In this document: positions 31,997 to 46,263 of the stretch, one piece after another | Numbering within the stretch: the stretch's first letter is position 1 | Layout of the letters: every line of letters begins with the position of its first letter | DNA from: Candidatus Zixiibacteriota bacterium | GTDB lineage: Bacteria; Zixibacteria; MSB-5A5; GN15; FEB-12 | DNA: 64,000 nt | Reading direction: 5' to 3' | Assembly: GCA_017999435.1 (NCBI GenBank) | Contig: JAGNLV010000005.1 | Span: 1-64,000, forward strand | Position numbers and translations under genes: made by a program | Notes under the pieces: model-generated | The model's input: the letters and a program-made list of their open reading frames with translations, nothing else | Database searches by the model: none | Told to the model about the DNA's origin: nothing

Positions 31997-34900
31997 TATC
32001 AATGGCAGATGGGAGGCGGACCGCTGCGGAAGAGGAAGGCGACCAGGTAGGTGAGGTCGCCGATGGCGATGGCGTCGCCGCCCTGGCCGTCGCAGTCGGC
32101 GGCGGCGAGCACCGGCGGCATCGGGCCGCCGCGGAAGAGGAAGGCCACCAGGTAGGTCAGGTCGCTCACCTTCGGGCCCGTCCCGTCGCCGTCGACGTCA
32201 CCGCACACCCAGCTGCTCACCGTCAGCGTCACCGGAAGCGTCGCCGTCGGCAAGAGCGGGTCGTTGGTCGTCACCGACACCTGGCCGGTGTACACCCCGG
32301 CCTCCAGCTCCCCCGCATCCAGGTGCACTACCACCTCGGCGGTCCCGTACGGCTCCACCGTCCCCCCGCTCGGCTCCGCCCACAGCCACCGCACCACGCT
32401 CAGCGTGATCGCCAGGTTGTCGTGCATGTACGGACCGTTGTACACCACCTGCAATCCGTCCGTCCCGCTCGCGTTCTCCATCCCCACGGTCGCCCCCGAC
32501 AGTCCCTCCGCGTCCGTCCCCGGATCCATCGTCTGGTACTGCAGCGTGATCTTCCCGTTCGCCCACAAAATCGCCTGGAAATTCAGGCTCCCCGTCCCCG
32601 ACGGGTACAGGTAGTTCCGAATGTCCACAAAGCTCACGATGAACCGCCCCAGGCTCGCATCCTGGTAGTAGTAGATCTGGCCACCGTTCGACGGATTCAG
32701 GTCGTCCCACCACAGCGCCAGAAGGTTGTTCGGCACCGCCGCCGTCGGAAGCCCCGTGTTCACCCGCGCCGTCGATCCCGACCCAAACGTCAGGATCCCG
32801 TTCGACCCGATGTACACCGCGCTGTAGCTCGAATCGTAGTAGGGAAAGGCAAAACCCAGATCCAGCGCCCCGCTCATCGCATCGTCCCCCAGCGCCACCG
32901 CCGTCCCCACCCCGCTGATGTCCACCCACGAAAACGCCGGACCACCCGGATCGTCCGAATCGATCCAGCTGTACCCGTACGTGTCCGGGCCCCCGTGGCT
33001 CCTGCCCCCCGCCGCGTAGAACGGCTGCTCGCCGTCACCCTTGTCATCCCCCGCCGACCGGTACCCCAGAAGCACCGCCGTCTCCGCCGCCGCCGCCGCG
33101 CTGGCCGTCTTCGGAAGATCGAACGCCTGGCAGGTCAGGTTGTACACCAACCGCCCCGCACCGCTGTTGCTGATCGTGAACGGCACCTCCACCGAATCCC
33201 CCGGACTCGTCGCCGCCGCGATCTCCGCCACGCTCAACTGCGCCGCCGGCGCGTATATGTACAAGTACACCGGCAGGCTCCCCGTCGCGTGCGCCGGATC
33301 GTCCGACGTGTAGTTCAGCGCCCCGTTGTACGCCCCCGGCGCCAATCCCCCGCAACTGAATGTCACCGCCACCGCCGCGCTGTCCGACGGGTTCACCGTG
33401 ATCGCCCCGCTCGGACAACTCAGCCACGGCAGGCTCTCCGTGAACGTGATGTGCAAGACCCCCAGACCCGAGTTGCGCACCCAGATACTCTGCTCCGCCA
33501 CGTCCCCCGTCGCCAGGCTGTCCGTCAACCCACCCGCGCTGAACTCCACCCCCGGCGTGTGAACGTGCAGGCGCACCGTGATGTCACCCGACGCGTGCAG
33601 GTTGTCGTTCGTCGTGTAGTGCAACAAACCCACGTGGTCCCCCGGCGCCAGGCCCTCCGTCGTGATCGTGAACGGAAACACCAGCGAATCCCCCGCCGGC
33701 ACGTAGTTCTGTTCCGTCCCGCACACCAACCACGACACCATCGGCACAAAACGGATCCGCAGCGTCCCGTCCCCCGTGTTGTACACCTTCACCCCCTGCG
33801 ACGAACTCCCCCCCGCCAACAGACTGTCGCTCACCTCCGTCTCCGGAAGCACGCACACCGCCGTCCCCCCCGTCGCCTGGTTGTACCCCTTCAACTCCAC
33901 GTCGTCAAGGTTCCACCCGCAGTAGTTCCAGCTCCCGTCCGTCGTCCCAATCCCAAAACGAATCTGGAAATCCGCATTCTCATCCGCGTACGCCGACACG
34001 TCGTAGTACGACTCCGTCCAGCTCGTCTCGTCGGTCGACGCCGCGTTCGTGAACAACTGCACCCAGCTCGTCCCGTCGTACACCTGCAGGTACACGTGGT
34101 CGTACGACGGACTCTCAATCCCCAGCCAGTGCCAGTACCGCAACTGCACCCCCGTGTAGTCCGCACAGTCGATCACCGGCGACGTCACCCAGTACGTCGT
34201 CGTCAAACCCCCCGCGTAGTCACCACCCGTCCCCGACGTCAGGTCGTTCCCCAGCACCCCGTTGTCGCTCGTCGCCGTGTGGTCCACGCTCGGATCCGGA
34301 CCCCCGTAACTGTCGCTCCCCGTGCCCCCCGTCGCCGCTCCAATCGTCCACTCCCCCGAACCCCCGAGGCCCGTCCACCCCTGGTTGTACGAAAAATCAT
34401 CCGTGAAAAACGCCACCCGATCCCCCACAATCAGGGTGAACGACAGCACCGCCGTGTACCCGTTCGCACCCGTCACCGAAAGACTCACCGGCACGCCGTA
34501 CCCCATCGGACACGACGACGACGCGCTCACCGTGTACACGTCACCACCGTTGCTCGCCACCCCCACCAGCGAATCCAGCCACCCATACGTCCCCCCGCCG
34601 TCCACCACCGTCACGTAGCTGTCGCTGACCCCCAGATCGGCAACCACCCCAAACGCCTCGCCCGTCCCCGCGTTCGTCAACGTCACCGTCAGATCCACCG
34701 TCTCCCCGGGATCCAATATCCCGTTGCTGTTGCCCGAAACGTCGTTGATCGCCACCTGACCAAAACCCACCTCCGGCGCGTGCACCTTCACCGTGAAGTT
34801 CCCCGTCCACGTCTCCCGGTTCGTCCCCGTCACCGCCAACGTGAACACCACATTGTGACCGTCCGGCGTCCCCGCGTCCAGACTGAACCCGTACCCGTCC

Positions 34901-35100
34901 GCCACATACCCCGTCCCGTTGTCCCCCGCGATCGTCCCGTACGACTCCACACCGTCCGTGATCGTCACGTACGTATCCGATGTCGTCAACGACGCCTCCA
35001 CATTGTACGCCGCGTCCGGACCCACGTTCTTGATCTGAACCCCCATCGTGAAACTCTCCCCGCCATCCACCACACCGTTCCCGTTTCCAGATACCTCGGT
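31997..35100. repeat. 3.1-kb direct repeat, copy 1
   Basis: This segment and 37256-40359 appear identical base for base at a constant offset of 5259. The identity begins at 'tatcaatggcag' around the stop codon and ends at 'atacctcggt'. All long open frames in every reading frame within the two copies have the same translations, which is what exact DNA identity predicts. It encodes the C-terminal ~1030 residues of each C25 peptidase. Confidence 0.93.
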
Positions 35101-37134
35101 CAGGGTGTTCGTGTCATAGAGGCAGTAGGGACCGTCGGGCGTAATGACGGTCAGCTCGACCTCGTAGGGGATGCGGTTGTGGGCGGTAACCGTCAGGGTC
35201 ATGTCGTTGCCGATGGGGAGTTCCGGGGGCAGCGCGAGGGAGGCGTTGCCGCCGGCATCGGTGTAGGCGGTCGCGTAGATCTGCCCGTTGTAGGTGAGGG
35301 CGCAGAGCGCGCCGGACACGCCGGCGACGGTCACGGCCATGCTGCTCCAGCCGACCATGATGACGTCCGAGTGGGAGACCGCCAGGGCGGTCGGCGCGAG
35401 CGTGCGGAGCATGACCGAGGGATCGCCGAAGATGTGCCAGGTGTCGTATATCTCGATGCCGTCGGCCCCGTTGAGGTCGATCATTTTACAGGAGCCGTTA
35501 AAGCAGAGGCCGCCGACAGTCAGTTTGGCTTCGGCGACGAGGAGGTCGTTGATCTCGTCCTGTCCGTCCATGGGAGGATTCCAGGACTGATTAATCGACG
35601 ACATGTACGCGGCCAGCGCGCCTGAGGGATTTCCGTTATGTGTGGCGCGCAGCCAGGCTTCGCCGAAGCAGGTGGTGCCGCCGAAGTCGCCGTTGACGCA
35701 GGCGACGCTGAAGATCACCGGCAGCAGATTGTCATTGACGAGGCTGTTGACGTTGCTGTTGCTGAAGCCGGTGGTGGACCAGGCGGTAGTGGATCCGTGG
35801 CCGACGTAGTTGACTACGCCGCGGCCGGCGTTAAGGGCCGTGGCCACAGCCGACGCGCTCGCTCCCGGGTCGTAGATCTGATCGACCGACGTGTAGTTGT
35901 AGGCGAGCAGGTCGTTGCGGATCAGGTTCATGTGCTGGTAGTCGTATTCGCCGAAGTGCCCGGGACCTTCGGAGGACGCGATGCCCGTAGCCTGCACGTA
36001 CATGTCGGCGCCGGCCGGGTTCATCTCATACATGAGCGTGCGCTGCACCTGGGTCTGGACCTGGGCGTCGGTCTCCGCCGAGAAGCGGCCGACCAGAATT
36101 TCCGGGTAGGAGTCGCCGCCGGCGAGTTTCGCGTAGCTCGGGTCGGACTCGCCGCCGGAGGCGGAGGGAGACGCGACCTGGGCGGCGTCGCCGACGAGGA
36201 GGAGGAAAGCGAGGTTGGTGGAATCGTAGAAAGCCTGGACGAAGTTCTTGATCGAAGCGGCATTGTTGCCGATAGCGGCGACATTGACCATCGTCGTCTT
36301 CATGCCCTTTTTCGTCTTCCAGTCCACGAGCGGCTGCATGTCATCGGCGAACTGCCCGTAGGTGATGATGAGCATGTCGCCCGCTTCGGCCACGGGAGTG
36401 TACTTGCCCACAAAGGCATCGAAATTGATGAAGTGCCGGCGATAGGTGAATTCGAAATCGGCGACCGGACGGCGGGCCATGCCGGGGGAGTCCAGGACAT
36501 TGATCCGGCCCGGGCCGGTAACGCGGATTTCGATGGACACCGATGTGTAGATGCGCAGAATTTTGGTCGCCGGGTTGTACTGGATCGGGTTGACCTCTAC
36601 GACCAGGCCGCGGTGGTCGCGCAAGATGTAGGGCTCGCCGAGCGCGGCGAGGTCGGCCGGAGCGAACCGGTCGAGCGAATAGGCCGGTCCGAATTCGAAG
36701 GGCACGTCGCTCGGAAGGACCGTGCGGAGCAGATTCCCCTTGGACGGGGCGACGAGCACGTTTTCGATGTCGACGTAGTCGGCCGAGAGGACCGTGACGC
36801 CCATTTCGGCGTCAGCGGGAATGATGATGCTCCTCCGCAGGGAGGGGAGAGCCGGCTCCCCTTTGGCCAACTGGACGGCCTCGTCGGGAAGCGTGATTTC
36901 GTAGTAGGTTTCGCCGCCGATGGTATACGGCGTTTTCTCGTAGGCGCCGATCGAGTAGGAGATGACGGTACGGACCGGGCCGGACTGCTCGACCGTGACG
37001 GCAACCGGGTCGCCCGCGGCTGCGCCGGGCAGGGCGACGAGTTCGGTTTCGCCGGACGGGCCGTAGGGGCCGGCAAGCAGGGGAGAGGCAAGCAACAGGA
37101 GTGCGAGCGCCGTGGACACAAGTAATGCTCTCAT
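31999..37134 (-). CDS. Gingipain-type (C25) cysteine peptidase with dockerin tail (copy A)
   Basis: 1711 aa. ATG start with GAGGA at 4 nt; signal peptide residues 1 to about 21. Residues about 30-235 are a C25 propeptide-like domain. The catalytic domain (about 250-590) shows His near 446 ('VNYVGHGSTTAW') and Cys near 477 ('IFSVACVNGDFGG'), the C25/caspase-like dyad. Next come an Ig-like domain, two CARDB-like blocks beginning 'EVSGNGNGVVDGGESF', a jelly-roll domain ending 'WNLDDVELKG', two BACON-like strands, the 'SNGILTFGSG...WDDLNP' segment, and two dockerin-like repeats ending 'FLFRSGPPP'. Everything from about residue 680 is identical to the neighbouring paralogue. Active extracellular endopeptidase is likely. 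Confidence 0.9.
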   Translation of the reverse strand: MRALLVSTALALLLLASPLLAGPYGPSGETELVALPGAAAGDPVAVTVEQSGPVRTVISYSIGAYEKTPYTIGGETYYEITLPDEAVQLAKGEPALPSLRRSIIIPADAEMGVTVLSADYVDIENVLVAPSKGNLLRTVLPSDVPFEFGPAYSLDRFAPADLAALGEPYILRDHRGLVVEVNPIQYNPATKILRIYTSVSIEIRVTGPGRINVLDSPGMARRPVADFEFTYRRHFINFDAFVGKYTPVAEAGDMLIITYGQFADDMQPLVDWKTKKGMKTTMVNVAAIGNNAASIKNFVQAFYDSTNLAFLLLVGDAAQVASPSASGGESDPSYAKLAGGDSYPEILVGRFSAETDAQVQTQVQRTLMYEMNPAGADMYVQATGIASSEGPGHFGEYDYQHMNLIRNDLLAYNYTSVDQIYDPGASASAVATALNAGRGVVNYVGHGSTTAWSTTGFSNSNVNSLVNDNLLPVIFSVACVNGDFGGTTCFGEAWLRATHNGNPSGALAAYMSSINQSWNPPMDGQDEINDLLVAEAKLTVGGLCFNGSCKMIDLNGADGIEIYDTWHIFGDPSVMLRTLAPTALAVSHSDVIMVGWSSMAVTVAGVSGALCALTYNGQIYATAYTDAGGNASLALPPELPIGNDMTLTVTAHNRIPYEVELTVITPDGPYCLYDTNTLTEVSGNGNGVVDGGESFTMGVQIKNVGPDAAYNVEASLTTSDTYVTITDGVESYGTIAGDNGTGYVADGYGFSLDAGTPDGHNVVFTLAVTGTNRETWTGNFTVKVHAPEVGFGQVAINDVSGNSNGILDPGETVDLTVTLTNAGTGEAFGVVADLGVSDSYVTVVDGGGTYGWLDSLVGVASNGGDVYTVSASSSCPMGYGVPVSLSVTGANGYTAVLSFTLIVGDRVAFFTDDFSYNQGWTGLGGSGEWTIGAATGGTGSDSYGGPDPSVDHTATSDNGVLGNDLTSGTGGDYAGGLTTTYWVTSPVIDCADYTGVQLRYWHWLGIESPSYDHVYLQVYDGTSWVQLFTNAASTDETSWTESYYDVSAYADENADFQIRFGIGTTDGSWNYCGWNLDDVELKGYNQATGGTAVCVLPETEVSDSLLAGGSSSQGVKVYNTGDGTLRIRFVPMVSWLVCGTEQNYVPAGDSLVFPFTITTEGLAPGDHVGLLHYTTNDNLHASGDITVRLHVHTPGVEFSAGGLTDSLATGDVAEQSIWVRNSGLGVLHITFTESLPWLSCPSGAITVNPSDSAAVAVTFSCGGLAPGAYNGALNYTSDDPAHATGSLPVYLYIYAPAAQLSVAEIAAATSPGDSVEVPFTISNSGAGRLVYNLTCQAFDLPKTASAAAAAETAVLLGYRSAGDDKGDGEQPFYAAGGRSHGGPDTYGYSWIDSDDPGGPAFSWVDISGVGTAVALGDDAMSGALDLGFAFPYYDSSYSAVYIGSNGILTFGSGSTARVNTGLPTAAVPNNLLALWWDDLNPSNGGQIYYYQDASLGRFIVSFVDIRNYLYPSGTGSLNFQAILWANGKITLQYQTMDPGTDAEGLSGATVGMENASGTDGLQVVYNGPYMHDNLAITLSVVRWLWAEPSGGTVEPYGTAEVVVHLDAGELEAGVYTGQVSVTTNDPLLPTATLPVTLTVSSWVCGDVDGDGTGPKVSDLTYLVAFLFRGGPMPPVLAAADCDGQGGDAIAIGDLTYLVAFLFRSGPPPICH

Positions 37135-37255: not shown

Positions 37256-40200
37256 TATCAATGGCAGATGGGAGGCGGACCGCTGCGGAAGAGGAAGGCG
37301 ACCAGGTAGGTGAGGTCGCCGATGGCGATGGCGTCGCCGCCCTGGCCGTCGCAGTCGGCGGCGGCGAGCACCGGCGGCATCGGGCCGCCGCGGAAGAGGA
37401 AGGCCACCAGGTAGGTCAGGTCGCTCACCTTCGGGCCCGTCCCGTCGCCGTCGACGTCACCGCACACCCAGCTGCTCACCGTCAGCGTCACCGGAAGCGT
37501 CGCCGTCGGCAAGAGCGGGTCGTTGGTCGTCACCGACACCTGGCCGGTGTACACCCCGGCCTCCAGCTCCCCCGCATCCAGGTGCACTACCACCTCGGCG
37601 GTCCCGTACGGCTCCACCGTCCCCCCGCTCGGCTCCGCCCACAGCCACCGCACCACGCTCAGCGTGATCGCCAGGTTGTCGTGCATGTACGGACCGTTGT
37701 ACACCACCTGCAATCCGTCCGTCCCGCTCGCGTTCTCCATCCCCACGGTCGCCCCCGACAGTCCCTCCGCGTCCGTCCCCGGATCCATCGTCTGGTACTG
37801 CAGCGTGATCTTCCCGTTCGCCCACAAAATCGCCTGGAAATTCAGGCTCCCCGTCCCCGACGGGTACAGGTAGTTCCGAATGTCCACAAAGCTCACGATG
37901 AACCGCCCCAGGCTCGCATCCTGGTAGTAGTAGATCTGGCCACCGTTCGACGGATTCAGGTCGTCCCACCACAGCGCCAGAAGGTTGTTCGGCACCGCCG
38001 CCGTCGGAAGCCCCGTGTTCACCCGCGCCGTCGATCCCGACCCAAACGTCAGGATCCCGTTCGACCCGATGTACACCGCGCTGTAGCTCGAATCGTAGTA
38101 GGGAAAGGCAAAACCCAGATCCAGCGCCCCGCTCATCGCATCGTCCCCCAGCGCCACCGCCGTCCCCACCCCGCTGATGTCCACCCACGAAAACGCCGGA
38201 CCACCCGGATCGTCCGAATCGATCCAGCTGTACCCGTACGTGTCCGGGCCCCCGTGGCTCCTGCCCCCCGCCGCGTAGAACGGCTGCTCGCCGTCACCCT
38301 TGTCATCCCCCGCCGACCGGTACCCCAGAAGCACCGCCGTCTCCGCCGCCGCCGCCGCGCTGGCCGTCTTCGGAAGATCGAACGCCTGGCAGGTCAGGTT
38401 GTACACCAACCGCCCCGCACCGCTGTTGCTGATCGTGAACGGCACCTCCACCGAATCCCCCGGACTCGTCGCCGCCGCGATCTCCGCCACGCTCAACTGC
38501 GCCGCCGGCGCGTATATGTACAAGTACACCGGCAGGCTCCCCGTCGCGTGCGCCGGATCGTCCGACGTGTAGTTCAGCGCCCCGTTGTACGCCCCCGGCG
38601 CCAATCCCCCGCAACTGAATGTCACCGCCACCGCCGCGCTGTCCGACGGGTTCACCGTGATCGCCCCGCTCGGACAACTCAGCCACGGCAGGCTCTCCGT
38701 GAACGTGATGTGCAAGACCCCCAGACCCGAGTTGCGCACCCAGATACTCTGCTCCGCCACGTCCCCCGTCGCCAGGCTGTCCGTCAACCCACCCGCGCTG
38801 AACTCCACCCCCGGCGTGTGAACGTGCAGGCGCACCGTGATGTCACCCGACGCGTGCAGGTTGTCGTTCGTCGTGTAGTGCAACAAACCCACGTGGTCCC
38901 CCGGCGCCAGGCCCTCCGTCGTGATCGTGAACGGAAACACCAGCGAATCCCCCGCCGGCACGTAGTTCTGTTCCGTCCCGCACACCAACCACGACACCAT
39001 CGGCACAAAACGGATCCGCAGCGTCCCGTCCCCCGTGTTGTACACCTTCACCCCCTGCGACGAACTCCCCCCCGCCAACAGACTGTCGCTCACCTCCGTC
39101 TCCGGAAGCACGCACACCGCCGTCCCCCCCGTCGCCTGGTTGTACCCCTTCAACTCCACGTCGTCAAGGTTCCACCCGCAGTAGTTCCAGCTCCCGTCCG
39201 TCGTCCCAATCCCAAAACGAATCTGGAAATCCGCATTCTCATCCGCGTACGCCGACACGTCGTAGTACGACTCCGTCCAGCTCGTCTCGTCGGTCGACGC
39301 CGCGTTCGTGAACAACTGCACCCAGCTCGTCCCGTCGTACACCTGCAGGTACACGTGGTCGTACGACGGACTCTCAATCCCCAGCCAGTGCCAGTACCGC
39401 AACTGCACCCCCGTGTAGTCCGCACAGTCGATCACCGGCGACGTCACCCAGTACGTCGTCGTCAAACCCCCCGCGTAGTCACCACCCGTCCCCGACGTCA
39501 GGTCGTTCCCCAGCACCCCGTTGTCGCTCGTCGCCGTGTGGTCCACGCTCGGATCCGGACCCCCGTAACTGTCGCTCCCCGTGCCCCCCGTCGCCGCTCC
39601 AATCGTCCACTCCCCCGAACCCCCGAGGCCCGTCCACCCCTGGTTGTACGAAAAATCATCCGTGAAAAACGCCACCCGATCCCCCACAATCAGGGTGAAC
39701 GACAGCACCGCCGTGTACCCGTTCGCACCCGTCACCGAAAGACTCACCGGCACGCCGTACCCCATCGGACACGACGACGACGCGCTCACCGTGTACACGT
39801 CACCACCGTTGCTCGCCACCCCCACCAGCGAATCCAGCCACCCATACGTCCCCCCGCCGTCCACCACCGTCACGTAGCTGTCGCTGACCCCCAGATCGGC
39901 AACCACCCCAAACGCCTCGCCCGTCCCCGCGTTCGTCAACGTCACCGTCAGATCCACCGTCTCCCCGGGATCCAATATCCCGTTGCTGTTGCCCGAAACG
40001 TCGTTGATCGCCACCTGACCAAAACCCACCTCCGGCGCGTGCACCTTCACCGTGAAGTTCCCCGTCCACGTCTCCCGGTTCGTCCCCGTCACCGCCAACG
40101 TGAACACCACATTGTGACCGTCCGGCGTCCCCGCGTCCAGACTGAACCCGTACCCGTCCGCCACATACCCCGTCCCGTTGTCCCCCGCGATCGTCCCGTA

Positions 40201-40359
40201 CGACTCCACACCGTCCGTGATCGTCACGTACGTATCCGATGTCGTCAACGACGCCTCCACATTGTACGCCGCGTCCGGACCCACGTTCTTGATCTGAACC
40301 CCCATCGTGAAACTCTCCCCGCCATCCACCACACCGTTCCCGTTTCCAGATACCTCGGT
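37256..40359. repeat. 3.1-kb direct repeat, copy 2
   Basis: Second copy of 31997-35100, same orientation, 5259 bases away. The sequence diverges immediately outside: the base before the repeat differs (t versus c), and after 'atacctcggt' the two genes continue with different sequence. Recombination between the copies would delete exactly one C25 catalytic half and leave one intact gene. Confidence 0.93.
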
Positions 40360-42871: not shown

Positions 42872-44881
42872 ATGGAGACGGAATACATCGCCGGGCAGCA
42901 GACCGGTCCGGTTGACCCGGACGCAAACATCCGGCAGACGGCCGCGCTCGTGCAGTACGTCCCGCGCAACCGGGCGACGCGGGAAACCTATGCGGCGCTC
43001 GGGTTCAAGTGCGGACTGGAAATTCATCAACAGCTTCTTACCCGGAGCAAGCTCTTCTGCCGCTGTCCGGCGGGCATCTACCACCACCGGGATGACTTTG
43101 ACGCCGAGGTCATCCGGCACATGCGCCCGACGCTGTCGGAGATGGGGGAGTACGACGGCACGGCGCTGATGGAAAAGCGGACGAAGAAGAACATCATTTA
43201 CCGGATCAAGGACCGGACCGCCTGCACCTACGAAATTGACGACACGCCGCCGTTTAAGATCGACCGGGAGGCACTGGAAATCGCGATCGAGGTTGCGCTT
43301 CTGCTGAAAACCAACATTGTCGGCGAGCTTCACATAACGCGAAAGCAGTACCTGGACGGGTCGATCCCGACGGGTTTTCAGCGCACGGCGATTGTCGGCA
43401 TCGAGGGGGAAATTCCCCTGGCGGCCAGGAAGGTGCGGATCATCCAGTTAAGCGTCGAGGAGGACAGCTGTCGGGAAGTGTCGGACGTCGCCCACGACCG
43501 GACCTACACGACCGACCGGCTGGGGATGCCGCTGATCGAAACGGTGACATATCCGGACATGCTGACGCCCGACGAAGCGGCGGAAGCGGCCCAATACCTG
43601 CGGTATCTCGCGCGGAGCACGGGTCACGTGCGGACCGGGATCGGGGCGGCCCGAGAGGATGTGAATGTGAGCATCACCGGGGGAACGCGGGTGGAAATCA
43701 AGGGGGTGGCGAAGATCAAGTGGATACCGGAATTGACCCACAACGAGGCGTTTCGCCAGCGGGCGCTGCTGGAGATCGCCCGGATTCTGCGGGAGCGGGT
43801 GGGTGATCCGGCCGCCTGGCGGATCAGCCAGGCGGACCTGCCCTTCGCCGTCTTCGAGCAGCCCTACGCGGTCTGGGCGAGCGCGCGCCAACGCGGGGGG
43901 CGGCTGGCGGTCATCAACCTGCCGGATTTCAAGGGGATACTCTCGTTCTTCACCCAGCCGGGGCAAATGTTTGCGCACGAACTGGAGGGGCGGGTGAAAG
44001 TGATTGCTTGCCTGGAGCGCCCGAATATTGTGCACAGCGAGCAGCCCGACCTGGTGCTCTCGGCGGCCGACTGGGCGGCCGTTTACGAACGGCTGCAACC
44101 GGGGCCGGGGGATGCCCAGGTCCTGGTGTGGGGGCCGCCGGCCGACGTAGCCACGGCAATCGAGACGATCGAAGAACGGTGCCGGATGGCTTTTGACGGC
44201 GTGCCGAACGAAACGCGGAAAGCGCTGCCGGACGGGACGACGATTTTTGAGCGGGTCCTGCCGGGACCGGACCGGATGTACCCGGACACCGACTCGGCGC
44301 CGCTGTCGGTGTCGGAGGAGCTGATCGAGAGACTGCGGAGGCGCCTGCCGGTCGAGGTGGCCGAGCGGATGCGGCAGTTGAGCACCTGGCAGGTGCCGGC
44401 GGACGCACACCGGTATCTGCTGGCCCGCAATCTGACACCGCTCATCGAGCGGATCGCGTCCGATTGGAGCTACGAGCCGCGCTGGGTCGGCAAAGTGCTC
44501 GGCCACGGACTGAAAAACATCGAACGCGAGAATATCTCGGAAGGGGCGCCGCTGGATTATGAACGGCTGTACGGGCTGTTCGCTTTCGTGAAGGAGCAGG
44601 GGCTGGACCGGGAGATCATCAAGGCAATGCTCCCGGCGGCCTACCGCAACCCGCAGGCCGGTTTTGCGGAGATTCTGGAGCGCACGGGATTCCGCCGGCG
44701 AAGCGAGGGCGACCTGCTCGGGCGGATTCCCGGGTTGGTGGGCCAATTCCGAAGGCACCGCCGGTCGGGCCACCCGGAGGCCGCAATCCGGTGGGCGATG
44801 GGCGTGCTGCGGCCGGAGGCGCTGGGGAACCTGTCGTTCGCCAAACTCCGGAAGGCCATCGCCGAGGAGGTGCGGGTATGA
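42872..44881 (+). CDS. gatE: Archaeal-type Glu-tRNA(Gln) amidotransferase subunit E
   Basis: 669 aa from the ATG at 42872 (AGGTGG 6 nt upstream); a GTG 9 nt earlier is possible. GatE is the kinase/transamidase subunit that converts Glu-tRNA(Gln) to Gln-tRNA(Gln), using ammonia from GatD. Diagnostic blocks: 'FKCGLEIHQQLLTRSKLFCR' near residue 45, 'EIDDTPPFKIDREALEIA', 'YLDGSIPTGFQRTAIVG', 'LSVEEDSCREV' and 'NVSITGGTRVEIKGV'. A GAD domain (about 290-430), which is found in GatE and bacterial AspRS but not in GatB, includes 'GPDRMYPDTDSAPL'. The C-terminus has the YqeY-like tail domain. The stop overlaps the gatD start (ATGA), indicating coupled expression. Confidence 0.94.
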   Translation: METEYIAGQQTGPVDPDANIRQTAALVQYVPRNRATRETYAALGFKCGLEIHQQLLTRSKLFCRCPAGIYHHRDDFDAEVIRHMRPTLSEMGEYDGTALMEKRTKKNIIYRIKDRTACTYEIDDTPPFKIDREALEIAIEVALLLKTNIVGELHITRKQYLDGSIPTGFQRTAIVGIEGEIPLAARKVRIIQLSVEEDSCREVSDVAHDRTYTTDRLGMPLIETVTYPDMLTPDEAAEAAQYLRYLARSTGHVRTGIGAAREDVNVSITGGTRVEIKGVAKIKWIPELTHNEAFRQRALLEIARILRERVGDPAAWRISQADLPFAVFEQPYAVWASARQRGGRLAVINLPDFKGILSFFTQPGQMFAHELEGRVKVIACLERPNIVHSEQPDLVLSAADWAAVYERLQPGPGDAQVLVWGPPADVATAIETIEERCRMAFDGVPNETRKALPDGTTIFERVLPGPDRMYPDTDSAPLSVSEELIERLRRRLPVEVAERMRQLSTWQVPADAHRYLLARNLTPLIERIASDWSYEPRWVGKVLGHGLKNIERENISEGAPLDYERLYGLFAFVKEQGLDREIIKAMLPAAYRNPQAGFAEILERTGFRRRSEGDLLGRIPGLVGQFRRHRRSGHPEAAIRWAMGVLRPEALGNLSFAKLRKAIAEEVRV

Positions 44882-46263
44882 CGGAAGATATCCTGAAGGG
44901 ATACCGGGGGGCGGCCCGCGAGGTGCTCGAAAAGTACCGGATTCGGGTCTGGAGCCAGACGGAGATCAACACGACCCGGGGCGGGTTCGCGGGAATTCTG
45001 TTGCCCCGGTCGGTCAACGACGACGAGAACCACCTGGTGCTGAAGCTGGCGACAGGGTACAACATCGGGATCGACGTGGCCACCATCCTGGACATGAAAG
45101 AGAGCGGGTACAAGGAGGCCCACTACAAGATTCCGGAGAAGGAGTTCCCGGTTTCGCCGGGGAAACCGCATGTGAAGCTGCTGGGGACCGGGGGCACGAT
45201 TGCGTCGCGGCTGGACTACCGGACGGGGGCGGTGATTCCGGCCTTTTCGCCGGGGGAGCTGTACGGGGCGGTGCCGGAATTGGCGGACATCTGCAACCTG
45301 TCGACGGAGAAGTTGTTTGCGGTGTTCAGCGAGAACATGGGGCCGTACCAGTACCGGGAGCTGGCCAAAGCGATCGGGCGGGAGATCGAGAAGGGGATCG
45401 ACGGCATCATTATCGGTCACGGGACGGACACGATGCACCACACGGCGTCGGCTCTGGCGTTCATGGTGCAGAACCCGCCGGTCCCGATCGTGATGGTAGG
45501 CTCGCAGCGGTCGAGCGACCGGCCCTCCTCGGACGCGGCCCTCAACCTGATCCACGCGACTAAGACGGCGGCGGAGTCGGACATCGCCGAGGTGATGGTG
45601 TGCATGTTCGGGCCGACCTCCGATGAGTACGCGTTGCTCCACCGGGGCACGCGGGTGCGCAAAATGCACTCGTCGTACCGGTCGACGTTTCGGACGGTGG
45701 GGGACACCCCGCTGGCGATGGTCGACCGGCAGCGGATCACGCCGCTCAAAGACACCTACAACCGGCGTCGGAGGGACCGGCAGGTGAAGGTTCTGCCGTA
45801 TTTCGAGGAGATGGTGGCGCTGGTCTACTACTACCCCAACATGCGGCCGGACATCATCGACTCCCTGCGCGAGAACGGCTACCGGGGGATCGTGATCGCG
45901 GGCACGGGCCTGGGGCACATCAACAAGCCGGTGTACCCGGCGATCGAGCGGGCGGCCCAGGCCGGCATCGCGATCTACATGACGGTGCAGACGCTGTGGG
46001 GGTACGTCCACATGTTCGTGTACGACACGGGGCGCGACCTGATGAGCCTCGGGATCATCCCGGCCGAGAACATGTTGCCCGAGGTGGCGTACATCAAACT
46101 CGGGTGGGCGCTGGGCCAGACGGAGGACCTGAACGAGGTGAAACGGCTGATGCTGACGCCGATCGCCGAGGAGATTACGCCGCGCGAGCCATACAACGGG
46201 TACCTGATTTTCCAGGGAGGCGTCCCCGAAGTGGAGGAGTTCCTGAAGAAGATTCACAAGTAA
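44878..46263 (+). CDS. gatD: Archaeal-type Glu-tRNA(Gln) amidotransferase subunit D
   Basis: 461 aa from the ATG at 44878, which shares ATGA with the gatE stop; the frame is open further upstream but this overlap and the GatD N-terminus favour it. GatD is the asparaginase-like subunit that frees ammonia from Gln or Asn for GatE. Residues about 15-95 are the GatD-specific N-terminal beta domain. The asparaginase-like domain has 'KLLGTGGTIASRLDY' (about 102-117) with the first catalytic Thr, 'GIIIGHGTDTMHHTASALAF' (about 177-196) with the Thr-Asp pair, and 'NLIHATKTA' with the Lys. A plain L-asparaginase would lack the N-terminal domain and the gatE partner. A terminator follows at 46304. Confidence 0.94.
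   Translation: MTEDILKGYRGAAREVLEKYRIRVWSQTEINTTRGGFAGILLPRSVNDDENHLVLKLATGYNIGIDVATILDMKESGYKEAHYKIPEKEFPVSPGKPHVKLLGTGGTIASRLDYRTGAVIPAFSPGELYGAVPELADICNLSTEKLFAVFSENMGPYQYRELAKAIGREIEKGIDGIIIGHGTDTMHHTASALAFMVQNPPVPIVMVGSQRSSDRPSSDAALNLIHATKTAAESDIAEVMVCMFGPTSDEYALLHRGTRVRKMHSSYRSTFRTVGDTPLAMVDRQRITPLKDTYNRRRRDRQVKVLPYFEEMVALVYYYPNMRPDIIDSLRENGYRGIVIAGTGLGHINKPVYPAIERAAQAGIAIYMTVQTLWGYVHMFVYDTGRDLMSLGIIPAENMLPEVAYIKLGWALGQTEDLNEVKRLMLTPIAEEITPREPYNGYLIFQGGVPEVEEFLKKIHK

Follow-up and report, generated by a model that had tools for sequence, protein, structure and literature searches.

The stretch of DNA analysed here, at its full length of 64,000 nucleotides (hereafter the window; positions 1 to 64,000 of contig JAGNLV010000005.1 from a Candidatus Zixiibacteriota bacterium), carries on its forward strand two overlapping genes, gatE and gatD. 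The former extends from an ATG start at 42872 to a stop at 44881 (42872..44881; 669 amino acids) and the latter from an ATG start at 44878 to a stop at 46263 (44878..46263), the stop of the first and the start of the second sharing an ATGA overlap (44878..44881) that is read straight from the sequence. A GAGGAGG motif sits shortly 5' of the gatD start, and the two genes are likely to be translationally coupled via the overlap. The product of gatE exceeds the cut-offs of the GatE equivalog models NF003107 (476.8 bits; cut-off 456) and TIGR00134 (388.2 bits; cut-off 319.6), its score with the GatB model TIGR00133 (116 bits) being far under the cut-off of 314.8. Concerning GatD, it scores above the cut-offs of TIGR02153 (498.6 bits; cut-off 324), NF003217 (507.6 bits; cut-off 310) and the GatD_N family PF18195 (40.2 bits; cut-off 25.7), and a profile search found the asparaginase-type domains PF00710 and PF17763 in it. 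The assignment of the two overlapping genes to GatE and GatD, proposed in an earlier note on this DNA, is thus borne out. The GAD domain that the same note ascribed to GatE fared less evenly, since neither Pfam GAD (PF02938) nor GatB_YqeY (PF02637) gives a score in the window's GatE; the putative GAD region nevertheless aligns unbroken to GatE from Pyrococcus abyssi (1ZQ1), PF02938 and PF02637 score in 8 and 10 of 20 GatE relatives, respectively, and the region is probably a diverged GAD.

The nearest solved structures are the GatDE enzymes of P. abyssi and Methanothermobacter thermautotrophicus. In the alignment, H52, E196 and E223 of the window's GatE correspond to H15, E157 and E184 of the M. 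thermautotrophicus GatE, which we take to be residues of the Mg/ATP site, and are invariant in 46 relatives; likewise, T107, T183, D184 and K262 of GatD correspond to T101, T177, D178 and K254, presumably the catalytic (amidase) residues, and are kept in all 64 aligned relatives. The mean column identity of the group of GatE sequences to which the window's protein belongs (clade I, see below) is 61% over 46 sequences from several phyla. An AlphaFold model of GatE (pLDDT 81.6), with a helical, confidently predicted C-terminal region, had as its top PDB matches in a fold search 1zq1_C (E 7e-33) and 2d6f_D (6e-32), GatB being weaker and AspRS chains also being returned with weak E-values; the predicted fold is thus like that of archaeal GatE. 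The two genes form an intact pair and, by family membership, a true GatDE.

The genome with the window (3.50 Mb in 7 contigs, 98.2% complete) has its closest named relatives, among the matches listed, in Candidatus Zixiibacteriota of the FCB group. The surroundings of the pair are bacterial, in line with the earlier note; C25 peptidases, a dockerin protein and a multihaem cytochrome-like protein flank it. The GC content of gatE (0.651) and gatD (0.638) is close to that of the window (0.648), a composition that gives no sign of a recent archaeal transfer; an old one is possible. It should be mentioned that a perfectly identical direct repeat of 3104 bp (31997-35100 and 37256-40359) forms the 3' parts of two adjacent genes on the reverse strand, of which at least the first (31999-37134) encodes a C25 (gingipain-like) peptidase; the repeat may be a recent duplication, a gene conversion or an assembly effect.

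The window's genome encodes a full-length GlnRS (TIGR00440, 707 bits; cut-off 425.8), an AsnRS (TIGR00457, 594 bits; cut-off 342.6) and bacterial GluRS, AspRS and LysRS, each above its own cut-off. In the profile search of the 3.50 Mb, the sole protein with a GatB_N domain was GatE, no GatB being found, and GatCAB was called absent on this ground. The ideas that GatDE supplies a missing route to Gln-tRNA in this genome, or acts beside GatCAB for Asn-tRNA, are accordingly not upheld, the former because of GlnRS and the latter because of AsnRS and the absence of GatB. Also seen was an AsnRS paralogue of 366 aa that lacks the anticodon-binding part and falls under the AsnRS cut-off (L037:1405-2502; G000:C1, about 1192407); it may be an asparagine synthetase related to AsnRS.

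Among the 43 tRNAs found in the window's genome, both tRNA-Gln isoacceptors have U1-A72, G2-C71, G3-C70 and G73, i.e. the identity set of bacterial GlnRS (PMC9976931). The pair A1-U72, which the earlier note had suggested looking for, is present in neither tRNA-Gln gene, this being a feature of the host and not of the enzyme sequence. The pair U1-A72 in tRNA-Gln was also seen in Marinifilum and in two further genomes (G120 and G127), and G73 occurs on tRNA-Gln in the Zixibacteria. For archaeal GatDE, the reported recognition elements are A1:U72 and the D-loop of tRNA-Gln (PMC9499178), and recognition by the bacterial GatE must hence differ if tRNA-Gln is its substrate. Two other features were considered and set aside: G1.U72 with A73 in tRNA-Glu(CUC) appeared odd and proved ordinary among these lineages, recurring in G120 and G127 and, on tRNA-Glu(UUC), in Marinifilum; and the position of Thermus GluRS R358 is uninformative as a readout of GluRS discrimination, being Arg in every GluRS examined, including those of genomes lacking GlnRS.

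Within the phylum, GatE exceeds the curated cut-off in 69 of 132 genomes and is found in 81 (about 61%) at E < 1e-30, the latter criterion letting in contig-end fragments. For Zixibacteria at least 90% complete, GlnRS was present in 54 of 57 genomes with GatE and in 13 of 26 without it (Fisher p 6e-6, with the genomes taken as independent and without a species tree), the corresponding counts of genera with and without GlnRS being 38 and 2 for GatE-positive, and 8 and 6 for GatE-negative ones (p 0.0024, also without a species tree). GatDE is therefore dispensable, since half of the near-complete genomes without GatE have GlnRS. Of the 13 genomes without both GatE and GlnRS, 12 have GatB, and their lack of the two is thus not merely incompleteness; the presence of GatE and that of GatB are mutually independent. 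One Zixibacterium MAG, G120 (94% complete, 130 contigs), has gatE, gatD and one GluRS, with neither GlnRS nor GatB detected in it; it may depend on GatDE alone, unless glnS, given the fragmentation into 130 contigs, was left unassembled.

A scan of GTDB gave at least 586 GatE relatives, the best 80 of which are all in records titled bacterial and span, in addition to Zixibacteria, Bacteroidales and other Bacteroidota, Aminicenantes, Cloacimonadota, Neomarinimicrobiota and Calditrichota. The best 80 include single-contig chromosomes and the isolates Marinifilum flexuosum DSM 21950 and Perlabentimonas gracilis, in both of which both subunits pass the equivalog models. GlnRS was above its cut-off in 43 of the 46 named genomes with bacterial GatE taken from these 80, covering several phyla, and GatB was present in only four of the 40 that were tested for it. 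By clustering, gatD adjoins gatE in 69 of the 80 loci, many of the remaining ones lying at a contig end or having a start that the simple gene caller overlooked; no other recurrent neighbour gene was found around the 80 loci. Bacterial GatDE is thus no lone transfer, but a lineage-level feature over several phyla. Of the two possibilities raised in the earlier note—horizontal transfer or a bacterial lineage that uses GatDE—a lineage keeping GatDE is supported by this spread in the phylum and beyond, and the GC content gives no indication of a recent archaeal transfer.

Several particular loci deserve mention. One stretch of 11 kb (L095:208-11352, in G130) contains gltX, glnS, gatE and gatD, this being the sole linkage of gltX/glnS with gatE/gatD among the 80 loci; the glnS is also seen in G129/G130. 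A 1172-aa open frame there, considered as a GatE fusion, is really a read-through antisense to glnS. Two loci of family f17 from the more diverse set of GatE sequences described below as clade II (L011 in G120 and L012 in G122) have the reversed order, with gatD upstream of gatE, and several other loci of that clade have no gatD within about 1.5 kb. A search of plasmids returned just GatB homologues and one haloarchaeal GatE, the latter unannotated and with an interrupted frame (L170:2887-4850; Natrinema thermotolerans plasmid record CP031304.1).

The evolutionary tree was rooted on GatB, to which the branch is long, and contained three archaeal GatE sequences only. All GatE sequences form a single clade versus GatB (support 100/100), and the window's GatE is located outside the GatB clade, which excludes the placement within GatB that the earlier note had named as refuting. 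The three archaeal sequences cluster together (100/98), as do the bacterial ones (90/94), the latter forming their own clade beside the archaeal sequences, a topology that both ancient inheritance and ancient transfer fit. The window's GatE belongs to clade I (100/100), with sequences from Zixibacteria, Bacteroidota and others, clade II being a second, more diverse set within the phylum. Members of different phyla interleave in clade I, which suggests that GatE moved among bacteria within it.

The alignment also revealed fixed differences between bacterial and archaeal GatE, e.g. GSIPTGFQRT versus GSN--GFQR. The bacterial loop RKQYLDGSIPTGFQRT stands against the archaeal RK-V-DGSN--GFQR and resembles RKNYFYPDLPKGYQIS of GatB, the stretch at RKQYLDGSIPTGFQ in bacterial GatE being similar to RKNYFYPDLPKGYQ of GatB. 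Since GatB enzymes read U1-A72 (PMC4206432), the GatB-like loop may enable the bacterial GatE to read U1-A72 tRNA, which is to be taken as a lead, not a demonstration.

Because the enzyme looks intact and selected, its chemistry has likely been retained. GatD would hydrolyse glutamine or asparagine with release of ammonia, and GatE would bind the tRNA, use ATP to activate the gamma-carboxyl group of Glu-tRNA(Gln) and amidate the activated Glu-tRNA(Gln) to Gln-tRNA(Gln). The hosts already have GlnRS, hence GatDE is most likely not their main supply of Gln-tRNA; Glu-tRNA(Gln) could arise through imperfect specificity of GluRS or GlnRS, and GatDE would turn this mischarged product into the right Gln-tRNA(Gln). 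We infer the activity, the substrate and the backup or repair role, and consider it an even call that the pair is a working GatD-GatE heterodimer of the bacterial clade that amidates Glu-tRNA(Gln) beside GlnRS, whether as a second route or for repair. Such a route would explain why GatE is lost mostly where GatCAB, without GlnRS, handles Glu-tRNA(Gln), and the presence of GatB in nearly all genomes without both GatE and GlnRS fits that pattern. The broader proposal—that a clade of bacterial GatDE present in several phyla recognises tRNA-Gln with U1-A72 and acts alongside GlnRS, giving two routes to Gln-tRNA(Gln) or a repair of mischarging, with a few lineages such as G120 maybe using GatDE alone—is put forward tentatively, at just under an even chance.

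The alternative that survives best, although unlikely, is that the bacterial GatDE has been re-purposed, i.e. that it has kept tRNA binding and the amidation of an acidic residue but applies them to another tRNA or to a non-translational purpose. It would agree with GatE accompanying GlnRS instead of replacing it, with a tRNA-Gln devoid of the archaeal determinant, with C-terminal domains so diverged that PF02637 and PF02938 give no score in the window's GatE, and with the fixed differences such as the one around GSIPTGFQRT. The retention of every catalytic residue checked and of the overall architecture speaks against it, as do the GatB-like loop, suiting a U1-A72 tRNA, and the lack of a recurrent neighbour around the 80 loci pointing to another pathway. 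Quite improbable is the reading that these bacteria, like archaea, make Gln-tRNA mainly through GatDE, GlnRS being secondary or inactive: the gene content of G120 would suit it, although glnS may simply be unassembled there, and it conflicts with a GlnRS that, in the window's genome and in almost every other, is full length and far over the cut-off, and with the bacterial GlnRS identity elements in both tRNA-Gln isoacceptors. That gatE and gatD are left over from an archaeal gene transfer, decaying and without present use, is very hard to maintain, for despite the patchiness of GatE in the phylum and its being missing from some genomes with GlnRS, the frames are intact, the clade-I sequences are conserved as given above with full catalytic sets, and the GC content of the pair fits the genome. 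A chimeric contig or archaeal contamination, a concern the earlier note had raised itself, is next to inconceivable, no support for it having been found and the pair lying between bacterial flanks on one contig, recurring in many independent bacterial genomes (81 of 132 in the phylum at E < 1e-30, in addition to isolates and single-contig chromosomes) and having a GatE apart from the archaeal ones in the tree.

With regard to the literature, a 2022 review describes GatDE as nowadays restricted to archaea and uses this as a basis for inferring the state in LUCA and early bacteria (PMC9499178), and reviews state that no bacterium has both Gln-tRNA routes; in the open-access papers searched, no discussion of bacterial GatDE was found. 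Since the NCBI models are passed, automated annotation would already call the proteins GatE and GatD, and therefore it is the pattern of bacterial GatDE occurrence that is new here, not the protein names. If the second or repair route beside GlnRS holds true, these organisms would be the first among bacteria in which Gln-tRNA(Gln) is made by two routes, or in which mischarged Glu-tRNA(Gln) is repaired enzymatically. The cultured bacteria with both GlnRS and GatDE make the statements on archaeal restriction and on the absence of dual routes testable, and the questions raised are why an amidotransferase is kept beside GlnRS, how GatE reads U1-A72, and whether bacteria inherited or acquired GatDE.

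Compared with archaeal GatDE (P. abyssi 1ZQ1 and M. thermautotrophicus 2D6F), the window's pair has in common both subunits, the domain order, the pairing of the genes, the Mg/ATP and amidase residues and the fold. It differs in residing in a bacterial host with GlnRS and with tRNA-Gln carrying U1-A72 rather than A1-U72, in a GatE from a separate clade with fixed sequence differences, and in having gatE ahead of gatD as an overlapping pair. With bacterial GatCAB, the window's GatE shares the homologous GatB_N catalytic domain, and the GatB loop RKNY..LPKGYQ resembles the RKQY..IPTGFQ loop of the window-type GatE; GatCAB, however, has GatA where the asparaginase-type GatD is found here. A further parallel is offered by Bdellovibrio, Deinococcus and Thermus, in which GatCAB is kept beside GlnRS and AsnRS and is tied to tRNA-dependent Asn synthesis (PMC4206432): there, too, an amidotransferase persists despite both direct synthetases, although in the window's genome, with GatB absent, that amidotransferase is GatDE.
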